DNA of 34,511 nucleotides from Balneolaceae bacterium. GTDB taxonomy: Bacteria; Bacteroidota; Rhodothermia; Balneolales; Balneolaceae. Positions 6,177 to 28,581 of the stretch are shown piece by piece. The position numbers and the translations under genes are program-made. Location of the stretch: assembly GCA_020832285.1 (NCBI GenBank), contig JAFIFB010000003.1, positions 1-34,511 of the forward strand, given 5' to 3'. How positions within the stretch are numbered: the first letter of the stretch is position 1; the number at the start of each line of letters is the position of its first letter. The notes below the pieces were generated by a model, which saw nothing but the letters and a program-made list of their open reading frames with translations, made no database searches and was not told the origin of the DNA.

Positions 6177-6474
6177 TTAAGTCAATAACTTTTGATAATG
6201 CATAAGATAATCATGGGTAAGGCACAGAATCGTTCTTCTTACTATATTCCATTCCCTTTTTTACCTTTTGCTATCTTATATTGCTCGTGGCAATCAACAA
6301 GTGCATAAAAAGTATATTTAAACATAAGCTTCGTGCTTATGAAATCGTTATAGCAAAATAATATGTCCGTGTAGTCGAAAACGGAAGGTTTACTTTGATT
6401 TGATTGTCTGCCAGAACTCAATTTGCAGAAGTTGTTAAAAAAATAAATTGCGATTTAACTTTTACTGTTCAAAT
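6177..6474. other. Intergenic region with a short perfect hairpin
   Basis: About 300 bases without a gene. It contains the perfect stem CATAAGC-ttcgt-GCTTATG at 6323-6341, flanked by AAA on both sides. It has no T-run and sits well before the next gene, so it looks more like a small REP than a terminator. Confidence 0.55.
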
Positions 6475-8718
6475 ATGATGCTTCACTATAGAAAGTCTGC
6501 CGCAACGCTGATTACAGCACTTCTATTTCTTTTTCATTCACCGGCACTTTTTTCCCAGGCTTTACAGGAGTATCAAAGTTTACAGCATGCACTGTTTTCG
6601 GCAGGACAGCTGGTAGGGGAACAGGGCCCGCAAAATGTAACGTGGATCGAGGGCGGAGAACGGTTCTCCTATATGCAGCAGAATTTTTCGGAACAGAGCC
6701 GCGAAATCAGAGCTTATAATCCGGCCAGTGGCAGCGATGAACTGATTTTCAGAACTACTGATTATACATTTCCGGGAACCGATGATCCGTTTGATTTTCG
6801 TTCATTTCAATGGTCCCAGGATTTTCGGTTTCTGGTTTTTCAAACCAACTTTACACCGATTTACCGCTATTCAGGAAACGCCGATTATTACTACTACTCT
6901 CTCGAAGAGAGTACACTCGATCTGATCGCTTCAGATGCTTTCACCGCTGAGCTTTCACCTGACGGGCAGCAGGTGGCCTATCACAGAGATGGTGAAATGT
7001 TTGTTTTTGATCTCAACACCGCCGAAGAGACGCAGCTTACGTTCGATGCGGAAGAAAACTTCTATAACGGGCGTTTTGGGTGGGTTTACGAGGAGGAATT
7101 TGGCCAGGTTCAGGCCTGGAAATGGTCACACGATGGTAACTATATCGCTTACTGGCAAAGTGATGAGCGCCATGTTCAGCGGTTTGTTTCTACAGATTTT
7201 GAAGGCAGTTATCCCGAATATACCGACATTCCCTATCCTAAAGTGGGTGAAGAGAATCCCTACGTCCGTATCGGTGTGATTAAGGTTGAATCCGGAGAAA
7301 AAAGGTGGATGGATATTGACCTCAACGACGGACTCATTCCCAGAATTTACTGGACAAGTAACCCGGGAGAATTGGCTGTGGTAAAAATGAACCGTCAGCA
7401 AAACCATCTTGATCTTTATTTTTACGATGCAGAAACCGGCCGGGGCACTCATATCATGGAAGAGAACTCATCAGATGGCTGGATTGATGTTTACGATTTT
7501 TTTGCCGGAATAGACGACTATTTCTTTTTCCCTGAAGACAGAGACGAATTCTTCTGGATATCCGATCGGGATGGATTCAAACATATCTATCGTTACGGTT
7601 ACGACGGTGAGCTTGTCAATCAGGTAACCAGCGGTAACTGGGAAGTCACCAACGTTCACGCCGTGAACTCCGGCCAGAACAGAATCTATTACGAATCAAC
7701 AGAAGTGAGTCCGCTCGAAAGACATCTCTACTCTATAGGTTTTGATGGAACAAGCAAGAGACAGTACAGCGATGAACCGGGCAGACATTCTTTTGATATG
7801 GGGCCGGATGGACGTTTTTATCTCGATTCCTGGTCAAATACCGATACACCAACTCAAGTGGAACTGTGGACAACAGAAAACGGAGGCGAAAAACTCGAAA
7901 AACTCGTGGATAATCAATCGGTGAAAGATTACATCAGAAGATATGTCTATTCGCCCAGAGAACTGTTTTCTTTTACTGCGACCGACGGGCAGGAACTGGA
8001 TGGTTACATTATCAAACCGATTGATTTTGATCCGGATGTAACCTACCCGCTTATTTTAATGGTCTACGGAGGACCCAGTGCGCAGGGTGTGTATAACGAG
8101 TTTGATTCAAACCCATGGATTCAGTTTTTGGCTCAGCAGGGGTATGCCATCGCCAATGTAAACAACCGGGGAAGTGGGGGGTATGGGCGCGATTTTGAAA
8201 AATCGGTATATCTGCGTCTTGGTAAAAAAGAGGCGTTCGATTTTGCAGAAACTGCCAGGTACCTGGGTTCATACGACTGGATTGATGAAAAACGAATTGG
8301 TATCAGGGGTCACAGTTACGGTGGCTATATGGCAGCTTTGACGATGGTGCTTTATCCAAGCGTCTTTAAAGCAGGAATTGTAGGTGCACCCGTAACCGAT
8401 TGGCGGTTATATGATACAATTTATACTGAACGATATATGGGCCTTCTCGAAGATAATAAAGAAAATTATATCGAAACATCCGTTATAGCACATGCAAGCA
8501 GGCTTCAGGGGAATCTCTTTGTTGCACACTCCTCAATGGATGAGAATGTTCATATCCAGAATACGATGCAGATGCTGACCGCATTTACCAATGCCGGTAA
8601 AGATGTGGATCTCAGAATCTATCCGCCCGGCGCACATGGTGTTGCCTATAATCAGCAGAGTTATATATTGCTTCATCAGGCTTATACCAACTTTTTGAAA
8701 CGCCATTTACGTCCCTGA
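6475..8718 (+). CDS. Dipeptidyl-peptidase IV-like S9 serine peptidase
   Basis: 747 residues from ATG 6475; an upstream in-frame TTG (6448) would only prefix a signal peptide and is rejected. Residues 1-29 form a signal peptide ending near SQA, so the protein is exported to the periplasm or outer membrane. Residues about 60-520 are the DPPIV-type beta-propeller, with the YEEEF motif (Glu206-Glu207 numbering from this start), the paired glutamates that hold the free N-terminus of the substrate. The C-terminal alpha/beta-hydrolase domain has GHSYGGY with Ser614, then SSMDENVH with Asp689, then PGAHGV with His721, a complete triad. It should remove X-Pro or X-Ala dipeptides from peptides. Monocistronic. 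Confidence 0.93.
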   Translation: MMLHYRKSAATLITALLFLFHSPALFSQALQEYQSLQHALFSAGQLVGEQGPQNVTWIEGGERFSYMQQNFSEQSREIRAYNPASGSDELIFRTTDYTFPGTDDPFDFRSFQWSQDFRFLVFQTNFTPIYRYSGNADYYYYSLEESTLDLIASDAFTAELSPDGQQVAYHRDGEMFVFDLNTAEETQLTFDAEENFYNGRFGWVYEEEFGQVQAWKWSHDGNYIAYWQSDERHVQRFVSTDFEGSYPEYTDIPYPKVGEENPYVRIGVIKVESGEKRWMDIDLNDGLIPRIYWTSNPGELAVVKMNRQQNHLDLYFYDAETGRGTHIMEENSSDGWIDVYDFFAGIDDYFFFPEDRDEFFWISDRDGFKHIYRYGYDGELVNQVTSGNWEVTNVHAVNSGQNRIYYESTEVSPLERHLYSIGFDGTSKRQYSDEPGRHSFDMGPDGRFYLDSWSNTDTPTQVELWTTENGGEKLEKLVDNQSVKDYIRRYVYSPRELFSFTATDGQELDGYIIKPIDFDPDVTYPLILMVYGGPSAQGVYNEFDSNPWIQFLAQQGYAIANVNNRGSGGYGRDFEKSVYLRLGKKEAFDFAETARYLGSYDWIDEKRIGIRGHSYGGYMAALTMVLYPSVFKAGIVGAPVTDWRLYDTIYTERYMGLLEDNKENYIETSVIAHASRLQGNLFVAHSSMDENVHIQNTMQMLTAFTNAGKDVDLRIYPPGAHGVAYNQQSYILLHQAYTNFLKRHLRP

Positions 8719-8909: not shown

Positions 8910-9356
8910 ATGATTAATCCCGCCGAACAGAATATGCGGGCAGCTATTGAGGCTGCTGAAGAGTTACAAACACCATTCGGTGCTGCGTTGGCAATGGGAG
9001 AAGAACTGTTTGCCACAGCGGCATGTCGTATCAATGATTTAGCGAACCCCGAAAAACATGCAGCTTTCATGGGGATTCGTGAATTGAATGAAAGGCTTCG
9101 TAAAAAAAATTTGTCTGGTTTTATCCTCTATACAACCTGCGAACCTTCCCGGGAGAGTATCAAGGAAGCCGAGGGTGCCAATATATCTACAATATTTTTT
9201 GGATGCTCTCATTCAGAAGTATCCAGATATGTCTCTGCAGAATATTACAAACCGGAAGATCTGAATTTTGATGATTCTACTGTTGAGATGATTGGCGGAA
9301 TATTGAACCTGGAGTGCATTCAGCTATTAGATCGTTTCACCGATGAGGATTCATAG
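8910..9356 (+). CDS. Deaminase-fold protein lacking catalytic residues
   Basis: 148 residues. The overall pattern follows guanine deaminase/tRNA-adenosine deaminase relatives: an N-terminal helix, PFGAALA strand (residues 22-28), helix with His50, then an LYTTCEP strand. The signature residues are changed. The HAE motif reads HAA (50-52), losing the proton-shuttling glutamate, and the PCxxC zinc motif reads P-S-R-E-S (79-83), losing both cysteine ligands; His50 alone remains. A Cys at 77 and another at 89 lie nearby but not at the ligand spacing. By family knowledge it should neither bind the usual zinc nor deaminate. A regulatory or binding role, or decay, is inferred. The frame is intact to its stop. 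It is followed closely by the convergent potassium channel gene. Confidence 0.75.
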   Translation: MINPAEQNMRAAIEAAEELQTPFGAALAMGEELFATAACRINDLANPEKHAAFMGIRELNERLRKKNLSGFILYTTCEPSRESIKEAEGANISTIFFGCSHSEVSRYVSAEYYKPEDLNFDDSTVEMIGGILNLECIQLLDRFTDEDS

Positions 9357-9377: not shown

Positions 9378-11090
9378 TTAACTTTTCTCATTTTCATATT
9401 TTTTTGTGAACAAAGCCTCTCCTTCAGAAGAACCGATCAGGATAATGTCTTGATTTAGTTTTAGTTTTCGCTGCGGCTGAGGGCTTACAATCATTCCCTT
9501 ATCCTGGCATTTGATTGCAACAATCGTGCAACCTGTTTCCTGACGGATGTTTGACTCAACCAGATTTTTGCCGGCCAGTTTATGATTTACTTTATGATTA
9601 AAAATGTTGAGCCCCTCGGCCAGTATCAGTACATCCTGGCCTTCTATAATATTAAATATGGAGTTAGCACCCATTGAAGCGTAGGACATCACGAAATCAG
9701 CTCCTGCACGATGCATGGTCTTAATATTTTTTTCGAAGTTGGTGCGGCTGATGATCTGCATATTGGGGCTGAGCTGGCGGCAGTATATGGTAAGGTAAAT
9801 ATTTACATCATCATCATGTGTGGTAATCAAAACAGAATGAGCGTCCTCGAGTCCGGCTCTTTTCAGAACGGAATGATCAGCGGCATCTCCAAGAATAAAT
9901 TTTTCCTTATCAAAAATTCTGGAGGGGTCTTTGTCAATAATGCGAAAATCAATGTGCCTTTCACTAAGTGATTTTGATGCAGCAAGCCCAACGCGTCCTG
10001 CACCAATAATAATGATAGGATTATCTGAAACGTGATAGATACTTACCAGTTCATCGTAATTTCTGAGCTGATCTACCGATCCTGCCAGTACCAGCACCGT
10101 TTTTTCTGTGATAACCGACTCGGGGTGTGCCTGTTTAAATTCTCCTCGTTCCCAAAACCCTACAACAGTAGCCCCAGTGGTTTCACGAAGGTTGCTTTCT
10201 CGCAGAGTTTTACCAATCAGAGGGGTTTCCTGGGCAGTGGCCTCTCCGAATACCAGGTCGTCAATATGGCCAATCACATGCACCCGGGCATTTCCCCCGA
10301 GGGTTCTGCGGGCTAACGAACGACCAAGAATATCTCCGAGCTGAAGTACATGGTTGGCTCCGGCGAGTTCAAGAATATCCACAGAATCTGCCGAAGCCGC
10401 CGTGGCTACAATTTTTACGTTTGTATTATATTCTCGTACAGTAAATGTTACATTGGTGTTGACCGTATCCGTTCCAGAGGCTACCACCATTTTTGCTTTT
10501 TTAATATTTAGTTTTTCATAGGTGTCAAAATCAGTGGGATCGAGATTGACTACCTTATAACCCGAGTCAGAAATTTCGAGCGCATTGTGCAGGTCATCTT
10601 CGAGAATTACATAATCAATTTTATAGGATTCAAGCTTTTTGATGAGTGTTTCCGTAACCGAATTAAGATTGGTTATGATAACATGATCTTTAACATGGTC
10701 AGCAATCTTCTTGGGTGCTCTTGATTCGTTCTGAGCTTTCATCCACGGTGCGTAAAAAAATTCGATAAACGTAAAGGGCAGCATTACAAGCAAGAAAAGA
10801 ACCCCTGAAAAGAGTACAATCATCGAGTAAATACGCCCTATATCTGTAGAGAAAACAATATCTCCGAAGCCAAGTGTAGACATGGTAACCAGTGTCCAGT
10901 AAAATCCGCTGACAATGGAGTGCTCGCCTTCGGCACCTTCATAAATCATTACGGCTTGAAACAAAAGAGAATAAAAGACATACATAAAAACCAGCAACGA
11001 CAAAAACTTTAGGAGTTTTCGGATGTTGGTTCTTGTTCGCCTGTTGGCAAAAAAGTATGAAAGTTGGGAACTGGAATAATTCACGGTCAA
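9378..11090 (-). CDS. Potassium channel with tandem RCK (TrkA-N/TrkA-C) domains
   Basis: 570 residues. Two transmembrane segments (about 28-50 and 86-110) flank a pore helix and a selectivity filter TLGFGD (72-77), a variant of TVGYGD. The cytoplasmic part holds two RCK units: TrkA-N1 (about 130-240), TrkA-C1 (about 270-340), TrkA-N2 (about 355-470) and TrkA-C2 (about 490-565). N2 has the nucleotide loop GAGRVG; N1 has TNLNSV in that place and has lost the glycines, so probably only the second domain binds NAD or another nucleotide. The layout resembles tandem-RCK channels such as GsuK of Geobacter. Four copies should form an inner-membrane channel. Monocistronic. Confidence 0.92.
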   Translation of the reverse strand: MTVNYSSSQLSYFFANRRTRTNIRKLLKFLSLLVFMYVFYSLLFQAVMIYEGAEGEHSIVSGFYWTLVTMSTLGFGDIVFSTDIGRIYSMIVLFSGVLFLLVMLPFTFIEFFYAPWMKAQNESRAPKKIADHVKDHVIITNLNSVTETLIKKLESYKIDYVILEDDLHNALEISDSGYKVVNLDPTDFDTYEKLNIKKAKMVVASGTDTVNTNVTFTVREYNTNVKIVATAASADSVDILELAGANHVLQLGDILGRSLARRTLGGNARVHVIGHIDDLVFGEATAQETPLIGKTLRESNLRETTGATVVGFWERGEFKQAHPESVITEKTVLVLAGSVDQLRNYDELVSIYHVSDNPIIIIGAGRVGLAASKSLSERHIDFRIIDKDPSRIFDKEKFILGDAADHSVLKRAGLEDAHSVLITTHDDDVNIYLTIYCRQLSPNMQIISRTNFEKNIKTMHRAGADFVMSYASMGANSIFNIIEGQDVLILAEGLNIFNHKVNHKLAGKNLVESNIRQETGCTIVAIKCQDKGMIVSPQPQRKLKLNQDIILIGSSEGEALFTKKYENEKS

Positions 11091-14112: not shown

Positions 14113-14751
14113 TCACTCAAGAAGCTCTCCTTCTTTACGGGCCTGTTGAATTACGTTGCCGGAAGTTAATGAGTAGGTTGGTGTAATGGGAAAGCCGGTT
14201 TGGCGAAGGGCACGTGCGGTCCAGGTATTGGATGTTTTGGGGAGATAGTAACGGCCGTTTGCCTCATAAAAAGAGCTGTTGGAGTAAAGTCCGTCAGCCG
14301 CGTAGATCACTTCACCATCGCTGTCTCTTCGGAACCGGTCGGCGACAAATTCGCCCAGTTTTTCGGCACCTTGCTCACTAACCTTTACCCTCACAATTCT
14401 GCTGGCGTAGAAATATCTCTCAACCGGCATGTCGATTCCCACCACATGAATCACACTCCGCGTAGGAAGTACAGCCGCACGCATCATCAGCCAGAAACCG
14501 GCTTCGCTGTCGGTGTAGTAGCGGCCATCGCCCCAGCCGAATTTCAGGAATGTAGATTGAGGGATGTCTGGATGTTCTGGCAACAGGTGTTCAATGTAGA
14601 TTTTTTCTATCGCAATTCCCACATGCCAGCCGTGACCTACAAGATAAACCGGAACCGGTCTCTTCTCAGGATCTTCGGGGTACAGATCTTTTACAGGGCC
14701 AAGGCAGCCGCATATAAAAATCAAAGATATCGGAATCAACAAACGAATCAT
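14113..14751 (-). CDS. DUF2459 / TIGR02117-type lipoprotein
   Basis: 212 residues from ATG 14751; an in-frame TTG 14 codons upstream would put 14 residues before the signal peptide and is rejected. The hydrophobic N-terminus ends in ICGC (Cys16), a plausible lipobox, so the protein is probably a lipoprotein. The body matches DUF2459: VYLVGHGWHVGIAI near the start of the domain, then LKFGWGDGRYY, then LPTRSVIHVVG. The family is conserved but uncharacterised; a link with polyhydroxyalkanoate genes has been noted in some genomes, with none visible here. Convergent with rlmN. Confidence 0.85.
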   Translation of the reverse strand: MIRLLIPISLIFICGCLGPVKDLYPEDPEKRPVPVYLVGHGWHVGIAIEKIYIEHLLPEHPDIPQSTFLKFGWGDGRYYTDSEAGFWLMMRAAVLPTRSVIHVVGIDMPVERYFYASRIVRVKVSEQGAEKLGEFVADRFRRDSDGEVIYAADGLYSNSSFYEANGRYYLPKTSNTWTARALRQTGFPITPTYSLTSGNVIQQARKEGELLE

Positions 14752-14876
14752 AGATCGAATAAAATAAGGCAGAAAATAGAGTTTATAGAACAATGAGTGA
14801 AGAATAGGAGTTTCAGAAAGATTTTAAGAGGCCCTTTACTAAATTATCGTCAGATTTTATTGAATTATTTTTCCAC

Positions 14877-26902: not shown

Positions 26903-27769
26903 TTAATAAACTCCTGAAAGAAATTCACTGAACTTCCCTACATTTTTATCTTCCAGTTCTTTCTCTTCTTCTTCAAAAAGCTCCCAGGGTTTGAGTTTAA
27001 ATGGACGGGTATTGTCATGATGCAAATCGTAAATAACGTCCTTTTGTTTACTTCCTGCTGGCTCATTAAAATAAACAACATGTCGTCCCTTCGTATGTAA
27101 ACCTAAGTTACCTGACAACTCGGCAAGTCCACTTATTAATGCCCGAATTTGATATACTTTATTCTCAATAGTGTAATGATCAGTTGTGGTATCTATTACA
27201 TTCCCGGAATAAATTTTGCCATTCGCACCGATATAATCCACTTGATGATTTCTTAAAATTGATTTTACCCGGTCTTTAGGAACCCGATATTTGATATCTA
27301 CCCGTTCAGACACTCTGGATGCTCTTAACGTTTCTTCAACTTTTTTTCCAAATACAACAGTTTCCTTTTCTTCAAAACCGTAATTCTTATCCACCAACAG
27401 TTTAAAGAGTGAGTCAAAATCATCAAGCTTAAAGTCACCAATATTCTCTTCCGGCTTGGAATAAAGTATCAAATTGTTGCTGTAGCGATTTAGATAATCG
27501 AAATAACTGTTTGTAAATGGATCAACATCAAAAGCCTCTTTCTGGTTTTTATCTTTCGATAAGCTATCTATCTTCCTTTTTATATTCTTGAGGAGCTTTT
27601 CAACAGAATCTACAGCTTCGCTATTAATTATTTTTGAGGCCATTTTCAACTTGTCCTCAGAATAATCAAACAGCGGTTTCCGATTGGCATTCAAAAACAT
27701 TCCAATTGCTATTTTCTCATCTGATATAGATTCAGATTTCAAATATATGACACTATAAAAGGGTTTCAT
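26903..27769 (-). CDS. Unrecognised protein encoded with the HipA-like kinase
   Basis: 288 residues, no family that I can name. The ATG (27769) overlaps the TGA of the upstream gene in ATGA, so it is translationally coupled to the HipA-like gene. The N-terminus, MKPFYSVIYLKSES then EKIAIGMFLN, has the short Y-x-x-V strand and an E-x-x-x-I-G-x-x-x pattern that I recall from DUF3037-type partners of HipA-like kinases; that likeness is weak. A Lys/Glu/Asp-rich middle (about 60-110) is followed by an alpha/beta part. It is charged and has no signal peptide or membrane segment, so it is probably cytoplasmic. It could be an antitoxin-like or substrate partner of the kinase; this is inference. Confidence 0.8.
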   Translation of the reverse strand: MKPFYSVIYLKSESISDEKIAIGMFLNANRKPLFDYSEDKLKMASKIINSEAVDSVEKLLKNIKRKIDSLSKDKNQKEAFDVDPFTNSYFDYLNRYSNNLILYSKPEENIGDFKLDDFDSLFKLLVDKNYGFEEKETVVFGKKVEETLRASRVSERVDIKYRVPKDRVKSILRNHQVDYIGANGKIYSGNVIDTTTDHYTIENKVYQIRALISGLAELSGNLGLHTKGRHVVYFNEPAGSKQKDVIYDLHHDNTRPFKLKPWELFEEEEKELEDKNVGKFSEFLSGVY

Positions 27770-28041: not shown

Positions 28042-28581
28042 TTATACATCTATTTCTGTTGTAATGTTTTTAAACGAATGTTCGGCTATTTTATTAAACG
28101 CTTCAAAATGATCAAATACCACTAATTTTTGTGTTTTCCCCCTTGTTAAAAAAAGATTGTAATTTTGAGCAGTCCGATCATTATTTCCGACCCACAAATC
28201 AAATAATCCAATTCTGAGCAAATGTTCCGGAAATTCTATTCTATTGAATTCATGTTTACTAAATACAAAGTCAAGTTGAGTAAGTTCATTTACCACATTT
28301 TGGGCCTTTTTTGAACCAAAAGCAATCTTTCCCTGGTTCATGTGATTTCTGAATTGAAAATTTTCCGGTACAGGATGATTTCCAATTTCAACATAAGCTA
28401 TTTCGGGTGTTTCAAGATGAAACTTTTTGGCTAAAAAATGGCAGACAATTTCTGCTATTGTACGATTGTATTTTACAAAGTAAACATCCAGTCCACGTTC
28501 CGATCTGCAGATAGCTTCAACCGGGCGATTATGCGTCTCTTTTTGACTTTTTAGTTGTATGGACTGAACGTTTTTTATCAC
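28042..28581 (-). CDS. HipA-like kinase, N-terminal and catalytic part
   Basis: 179 residues from GTG 28581, overlapping the TGA of the upstream small ORF as GTGA. The N-lobe has VYFVKY (likely ATP lysine) and a helix LAKKFHLETPEIAYVEI. The catalytic region reads LWVGNNDRTAQNYNLFL, with the N-D-R loop, and then VVFDHFEAF, the metal-binding Asp-His. These are the HipA_2-type kinase motifs. The frame then stops at TAA in the middle of the C-lobe and continues in the same frame into the next piece; together the two would make about 271 codons, the usual family length. HipA kinases phosphorylate tRNA synthetase or other targets and act in toxin-antitoxin or defence roles; the target here is unknown. 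Confidence 0.75.
   Translation of the reverse strand: MIKNVQSIQLKSQKETHNRPVEAICRSERGLDVYFVKYNRTIAEIVCHFLAKKFHLETPEIAYVEIGNHPVPENFQFRNHMNQGKIAFGSKKAQNVVNELTQLDFVFSKHEFNRIEFPEHLLRIGLFDLWVGNNDRTAQNYNLFLTRGKTQKLVVFDHFEAFNKIAEHSFKNITTEIDV

Follow-up and report, generated by a model that had tools for sequence, protein, structure and literature searches.

A deaminase-fold protein of Balneolaceae that has lost its catalytic glutamate and zinc cysteines is probably a retained pseudoenzyme

We report on a gene in a 34,511-nucleotide stretch of DNA from a Balneolaceae bacterium, referred to throughout as the window. By synteny the gene descends from a Balneolaceae deaminase gene of the TadA/guanine-deaminase type with one domain, and it probably encodes a retained pseudoenzyme. 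Its fold core has diverged no more than the cores of intact copies of the same gene, while the segments that make up the active site have drifted far.

Results

The gene and its lost motifs

The open reading frame at 8910-9356 starts with ATG and stops with TAG. The gene, the two motif positions and the neighboring genes that serve as syntenic anchors are as follows.

6448-8718, + strand: dipeptidyl peptidase IV (DPP IV)/S9 gene, upstream syntenic anchor (PF00930, 7.9e-91; PF00326, 3.3e-53)
8910-9356, + strand: putative deaminase-fold pseudoenzyme of 148 amino acids (PF00383, AlphaFold2, structure matches)
9057-9065, + strand: H50-A51-A52 replacing HAE; catalytic glutamate lost, zinc histidine kept
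9144-9158, + strand: P79-S80-R81-E82-S83 replacing PCxxC; both zinc cysteines lost
9378-11090, - strand: K+ channel gene with TrkA domains, downstream syntenic anchor (PF07885, PF02254, PF02080)

A preliminary description of this DNA had pointed to the changes from HAE to HAA at residues 50-52 and from PCxxC to PSRES at residues 79-83, and both were confirmed. It had also held that the catalytic glutamate and both cysteine ligands were gone from a frame of full length, and this agrees with the alignment of orthologs described below (A1), where E52, C80 and C83 occur without exception in the 15 intact rows, and where the rows measure 137-149 amino acids against 148 for the window protein. The motifs were sought in both other reading frames of 8910-9356 and were absent from them. 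Compensating frameshifts are therefore not the cause of HAA and PSRES, and an artefact of this kind, or a double frameshift, was rejected.

Despite the lost motifs, the window protein matches PF00383 at E 4.5e-6, with 26.9 bits against a curated cut-off of 25. By fold and profile score it thus belongs with the zinc-dependent cytidine/deoxycytidylate/purine deaminases, but A52 stands in place of the catalytic glutamate of HxE, and S80 and S83 stand in place of the zinc ligands of PCxxC. Its sequence matches in the PDB are TadA, guanine deaminases and guanosine deaminases. The protein does not belong to the TadA family as defined by NCBIfam PRK10860.1 (27.5 bits against a cut-off of 150), and in the deaminase tree five TadA rows split off at 100/100 without the window protein clustering among them. 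Three GuaD-like rows form a group of their own (99/98) that does not include it either; the window protein and its orthologs, 18 rows together, make up a group separate from the GuaD-like rows, although weakly held (94/61). A promoter scan gave results near chance, no terminator was found, and no Rfam families or tRNA genes were found in the window.

One orthologous gene between conserved neighbors

Of 92 family genomes searched, 17 matched at E 1e-9 or lower, the window genome (G000; 5.33 Mb in 130 contigs) among them. They gave alignment A1 its 18 rows, two of them contributed by G014. The DPP IV and K+ channel genes both flank 13 of the 17 other ortholog copies; on the stretches fetched, L040 and L043 had the DPP gene only, L048 the channel gene only, and L047 neither. 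The window gene itself lies between these two genes, and the common synteny of the copies therefore identifies them as one orthologous gene. In G020, G026, G022, G019 and G011 a single contig carries both flanking genes and the gene is missing, so it is dispensable in the group. In G017, the closest relative by neighbor genes (channel 87%), the contig begins at the channel-gene end, and the DPP matches were only distant paralogs (29-32%). In G025 just the first 38 residues of the ortholog are present, at a contig end.

Several further features were observed at these loci. Of the two ortholog copies in G014, one is followed by trkA/trkH (L040) and the other lies beside the K+ channel gene (L036). 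Eight loci (L033, L034, L035, L037, L040, L041, L042 and L044) carry trkA and trkH on the same strand 3' of the deaminase gene, with the families checked by Pfam on L044 only, and in several loci the two genes separate the deaminase gene from the channel gene. The window genome had no match to the trkA of L044 at E 1e-30, and a link to Trk potassium uptake was therefore dropped. In four loci (L033, L036, L038, L039) an open reading frame like those of 23S rRNA intervening sequences (PF05635, checked on L038 only) lies between the DPP IV and deaminase genes, which hints at an insertion at that spot. Elsewhere in the window, a 179-aa HipA_2-like kinase open reading frame is found at 28042-28581 on the - strand (PF20613, profile positions 17-160 of 240), and after it, also on the - strand, comes the open reading frame 26903-27769, which had no Pfam match at E 0.001. 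A DUF2459 protein, whose function is not known, is encoded at 14113-14793 on the - strand (PF09601, E 1.4e-34).

Loss of motifs among orthologs and other deaminases

The preliminary description had proposed to check whether HAA and PSRES are conserved in homologues. They are not: HAE and PCxxC are both intact in 15 of the 17 other ortholog copies in A1. The remaining two have lost the glutamate with their cysteines intact (HAV with PCSDC in G012; HAA with PCPMC in G039), giving a loss of glutamate in 3 of the 18 copies, and within A1 the loss of cysteines is confined to the window copy. The losses in the window protein extend beyond the motifs to N39, T41, D46, T48, A49, M82, S85, A86, W89, I101, I104, Q110 and I111, none of which varies among the 15 intact rows. 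The intact copies share 37 invariant columns, of which the window protein has lost 16 and G012 has lost 17. The two proteins have 13 of these lost columns in common (Fisher p 2.2e-4; 7.1e-4 when columns 85 and 86 are left out).

Deaminases outside the ortholog group served as a control. HAE and PCxxC are kept in 43 of 43 non-orthologous genes (41 from the same genus and one each from G039 and G091), a count that leaves out three genes, two of which have both motifs while the third, from G091, has HAE and PSPIG. The 43 include the TadA-like and GuaD-like paralogs of the window genome itself, the former named by its position in the tree, and both are intact. A contig search of named genomes with the window protein alone as query gave no match. 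An alignment-based contig search, the seed patterns of which favor intact motifs, gave at least 80 named loci; among the matches listed there were 68 HAE, 9 HGE, 2 HSE and 1 HAA, PCxxC was present in 80 of 80 loci, and L049 was the best match. Loci L049-L052 lie on the same contigs as G009, G014, G015 and G039 and add no new ortholog. At the level of the phylum, 22 of 394 genomes examined matched at E 1e-8; the 39 loci inspected included five that repeat a gene already among them and one ortholog copy already counted. One more altered copy came to light, that of G091 (L158:4997-5434), a distant nucleoside-deaminase homologue from another family of the order with HAE kept and PSPIG for PCxxC. 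It groups with other nucleoside deaminases in the tree, outside the ortholog group of the window protein.

A conserved core and drifted active-site segments

Identity to the intact orthologs is distributed unevenly along the window protein, as the following segments illustrate (window to intact copies, against the value among intact orthologs).

8934-9023, + strand: conserved fold-core segment, residues 9-38, 0.66 vs 0.64
9024-9068, + strand: diverged segment, residues 39-53, 0.24 vs 0.75; N39 to C, D46 to N, T48 to E
9111-9146, + strand: conserved fold-core segment, residues 68-79, 0.89 vs 0.90
9147-9185, + strand: diverged segment, residues 80-92, 0.19 vs 0.81; W89 to G, and I84-K85-E86 common to G012
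9210-9284, + strand: diverged segment, residues 101-125, 0.14 vs 0.40; Q110 to A, I111 to E

The other core segments are residues 93-100 (0.47; intact 0.53) and 126-145 (0.36; intact 0.39), and residues 54-67, which are intermediate (0.40 vs 0.53), were placed in neither the core nor the motif set. Mean identity to the intact copies is 0.593 for the core and 0.185 for the motif segments of the window protein, against 0.50-0.65 and 0.52-0.64, respectively, for the 15 intact copies. The segments were drawn after the window protein had been inspected, and G012 is therefore the only test of them. Its means are 0.556 for the core and 0.190 for the motif segments. The individual core segments, in order along the protein, give 0.62, 0.64, 0.52 and 0.41, of which the second (68-79) is clearly under the intact level of 0.90, and the diverged segments give 0.21, 0.25 and 0.15. 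G039 (core 0.497, motif 0.444) lacks the pattern seen in the window protein and G012, and may be a recent or a different case.

The window deaminase has a mean identity of 42%, compared with 46-60% for the other deaminases except G012 (40%), whereas the neighboring genes of the window average 71% (DPP) and 72% (channel) against 13 relatives. Codon positions 1 and 2 of the window gene differ by 0.34-0.50 and position 3 by 0.60-0.71, the third positions being near saturation. The lower difference at positions 1 and 2 is consistent with constraint, but is not decisive.

One loss or two

The resemblance between the window protein and G012 raises the possibility that they represent a single pseudoenzyme lineage, through transfer or hidden paralogy. 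This would concern origin only, and is compatible with a retained pseudoenzyme. The neighbor-protein tree separates the two, placing the window with G004/G014/G008/G002 (93/98) and G012 with G005/G016 (100/100). In the deaminase tree both have very long branches, and once the diverged segments are removed the remaining core groups G012 with G005 and G016 (97/99), apart from the window. Moreover, the two proteins agree in just 4 of the 30 columns that are novel in both (with G039 added to the copies compared, in 3 of 27). The I-K-E block at 84-86 accounts for three of these four and V108 is the fourth, all absent from the 15 intact copies, and they speak for a common origin, as do the two copies in G014, which demonstrate that duplicates existed. 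A clade of window and G012 was also not rejected by AU tests, whether on all columns (p 0.527, with the constrained tree slightly better, and 0.289 in a second run) or on the core only, where the forced clade is worse by 12.4 log units (p 0.114). The same holds for a grouping of the window with its neighbor-gene relatives (p 0.324, 0.255 and 0.179). Taken together the trees would favor, without establishing, separate losses in the window and G012 over one, and we regard a single lineage as somewhat unlikely. If the two were nevertheless of one origin, G012 would not count as an independent replicate.

Neutral simulations argue against decay

Neutral evolution was simulated with substitutions only, without indels or selection, and run to the observed overall identity, in 1200 runs per protein (four starting genes with 300 runs each). 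Mean core identity in these runs was 0.40-0.44, and the observed core was reached in 0 of 1200 runs for the window protein and in 0 of 1200 for G012. The frame remained free of stops in 133 of 1200 runs at the divergence of the window gene and in 95 of 1200 at that of G012, and the open frame alone is thus weak evidence of retention.

These results bear on whether the gene is simply decaying, that is, whether the enzyme is unneeded beside two intact paralogs and this copy drifts, its frame open so far only by chance. Such a process would fit the five genus members in which the flanks are kept and the gene is gone, the 3 of 18 ortholog copies without glutamate, the low identity of the deaminase next to that of its neighbors, and an open frame that chance leaves in no small number of runs. 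It does not fit a core as conserved as that of intact copies, in the window protein and G012 alike, which no neutral run reproduced, nor a window gene with no stop and no frameshift, and we consider decay distinctly unlikely. The preserved core, the collapse of motifs and pocket, and the outcome of the simulations together argue against plain decay or recent inactivation and for a retained pseudoenzyme. Recent inactivation had been anticipated in the preliminary description for the case of a single altered copy among intact homologues; what we find instead is glutamate loss also in G012 and G039, and motif segments in the window protein that are far diverged. The earlier reading of a protein kept rather than decaying is accordingly supported by the core, the simulations and the similar pattern of G012, and weakened insofar as the motif changes are not conserved.

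Predicted fold

In keeping with the preliminary description, which had seen the fold pattern as preserved, AlphaFold2 predicted a deaminase fold for the window protein with confidence (pLDDT 88.8, pTM 0.86; 97.1 and 0.92 for the intact ortholog L049), from input homologues that were almost all intact. Besides the window protein itself, the predictor's alignment contained 63 homologues, of which 62, all but L052, are intact by motif; this input will have raised the confidence, and the window model is therefore not independent proof of folding. Its low-confidence parts are residues 41-50 (73) and 111-120 (64), both diverged, and the C-terminal residues 141-148 (70). Among solved structures it matched guanosine deaminase 7dbf best, at 2.5 A over 139 and Z 19.7, and then the TadA structures 2b3j and 7cph at Z 18.9, whereas for the intact-ortholog model TadA and guanosine deaminase were tied at Z 21.6-21.9. 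The window protein is thus alike in fold to these enzymes (Z 18.9-19.7, at 19-24% identity over aligned residues), but differs from them in being without catalytic glutamate and zinc cysteines.

A new active or metal site, formed by the gained C39 and H101 with the kept H50 and C77 and serving metal binding or other catalysis, seems very improbable. In its favor, columns 39 and 101 are invariant N and I in the 15 intact orthologs, and C39 and H101 presumably lie near the old pocket; against it, G012, with similar losses, has S and I at these columns.

Discussion

Our results favor a retained pseudoenzyme, and the question is what such a protein could do. Given the chemistry established for this family, the missing glutamate and cysteines rule out the zinc-hydrolytic reaction. 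With one of three ligands left the usual mode of zinc binding would be closed to the window protein, and with the glutamate also gone it would not catalyze zinc-hydrolytic deamination. The lost invariant positions around the motifs are, we assume, those that line the substrate pocket in TadA and GuaD structures; since these pocket positions are lost as well, the sequence makes purine binding, or a role as purine sensor, appear unlikely. Constraint acts on the core and not on the pocket, and for this reason contact with another protein would be our best guess. The protein may be a dimer partner or a regulator, and candidate partners, put forward more tentatively, are the two intact deaminases of the genome (TadA and GuaD-like) or another protein. 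By analogy with ADAT2/ADAT3, the intact TadA-like and GuaD-like proteins would be the natural candidates.

Inactive deaminases have been described before, and in two accounts, on ADAT3 and CDADC1, glutamate is likewise required for deamination (PMC8216470, PMC12088426). ADAT3 is presented as the structural subunit of ADAT2/ADAT3 in PMC7713142. According to PMC8216470, its catalytic glutamate is replaced by valine, and it still holds zinc and is capped by its own C-terminus. The window protein resembles ADAT3/Tad3 in being a non-catalytic protein of deaminase fold with the glutamate replaced (alanine in the window, valine in G012). It differs in that ADAT3 holds zinc, carries an additional domain at its N-terminus and is the partner of ADAT2, whereas the window protein has lost both cysteines and consists of a single domain. 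Defined by kept zinc ligands and a replaced glutamate, a Tad3/ADAT3-like protein is therefore not what the window encodes, but the G012 ortholog, with HAV and PCSDC, would qualify by motif. The N-terminal domain of CDADC1, as described in PMC12088426, is comparable as an inactive deaminase domain with an architectural role in which HAE has become HAG, but it binds zinc via H109, C134 and C137, and an active domain is part of the same protein. The syntenic Balneolaceae orthologs, such as L049 and L050, have the locus and fold core of the window protein, but in them HAE, PCxxC and the pocket are present.

In titles and opening abstract lines of the open-access literature we found no bacterial zinc-free pseudoenzyme of the TadA/GuaD type, nor did we find a characterized member of the Balneolaceae syntenic deaminase group. 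Inactive versions of enzymes are discussed in PMC7159879 and PMC3482391, none like the window protein in the portions available. It is tempting to suppose that one chromosomal locus was turned at least twice, separately, into a zinc-free or glutamate-free deaminase-fold protein with a new, selected role, as a bacterial parallel to the eukaryotic ADAT2/ADAT3 split with parallel release of the same residues; we offer this tentatively, as a rather doubtful proposition.

The described dead deaminases that we found are partner domains from eukaryotes in which zinc is retained, whereas the window protein is bacterial and has lost the usual ligands. Because related species have intact orthologs at this locus, it would be a clean system for the change from an enzyme to a binding protein, and the retained pseudoenzyme that the window probably encodes bears on whether bacterial deaminases also use dead partners.
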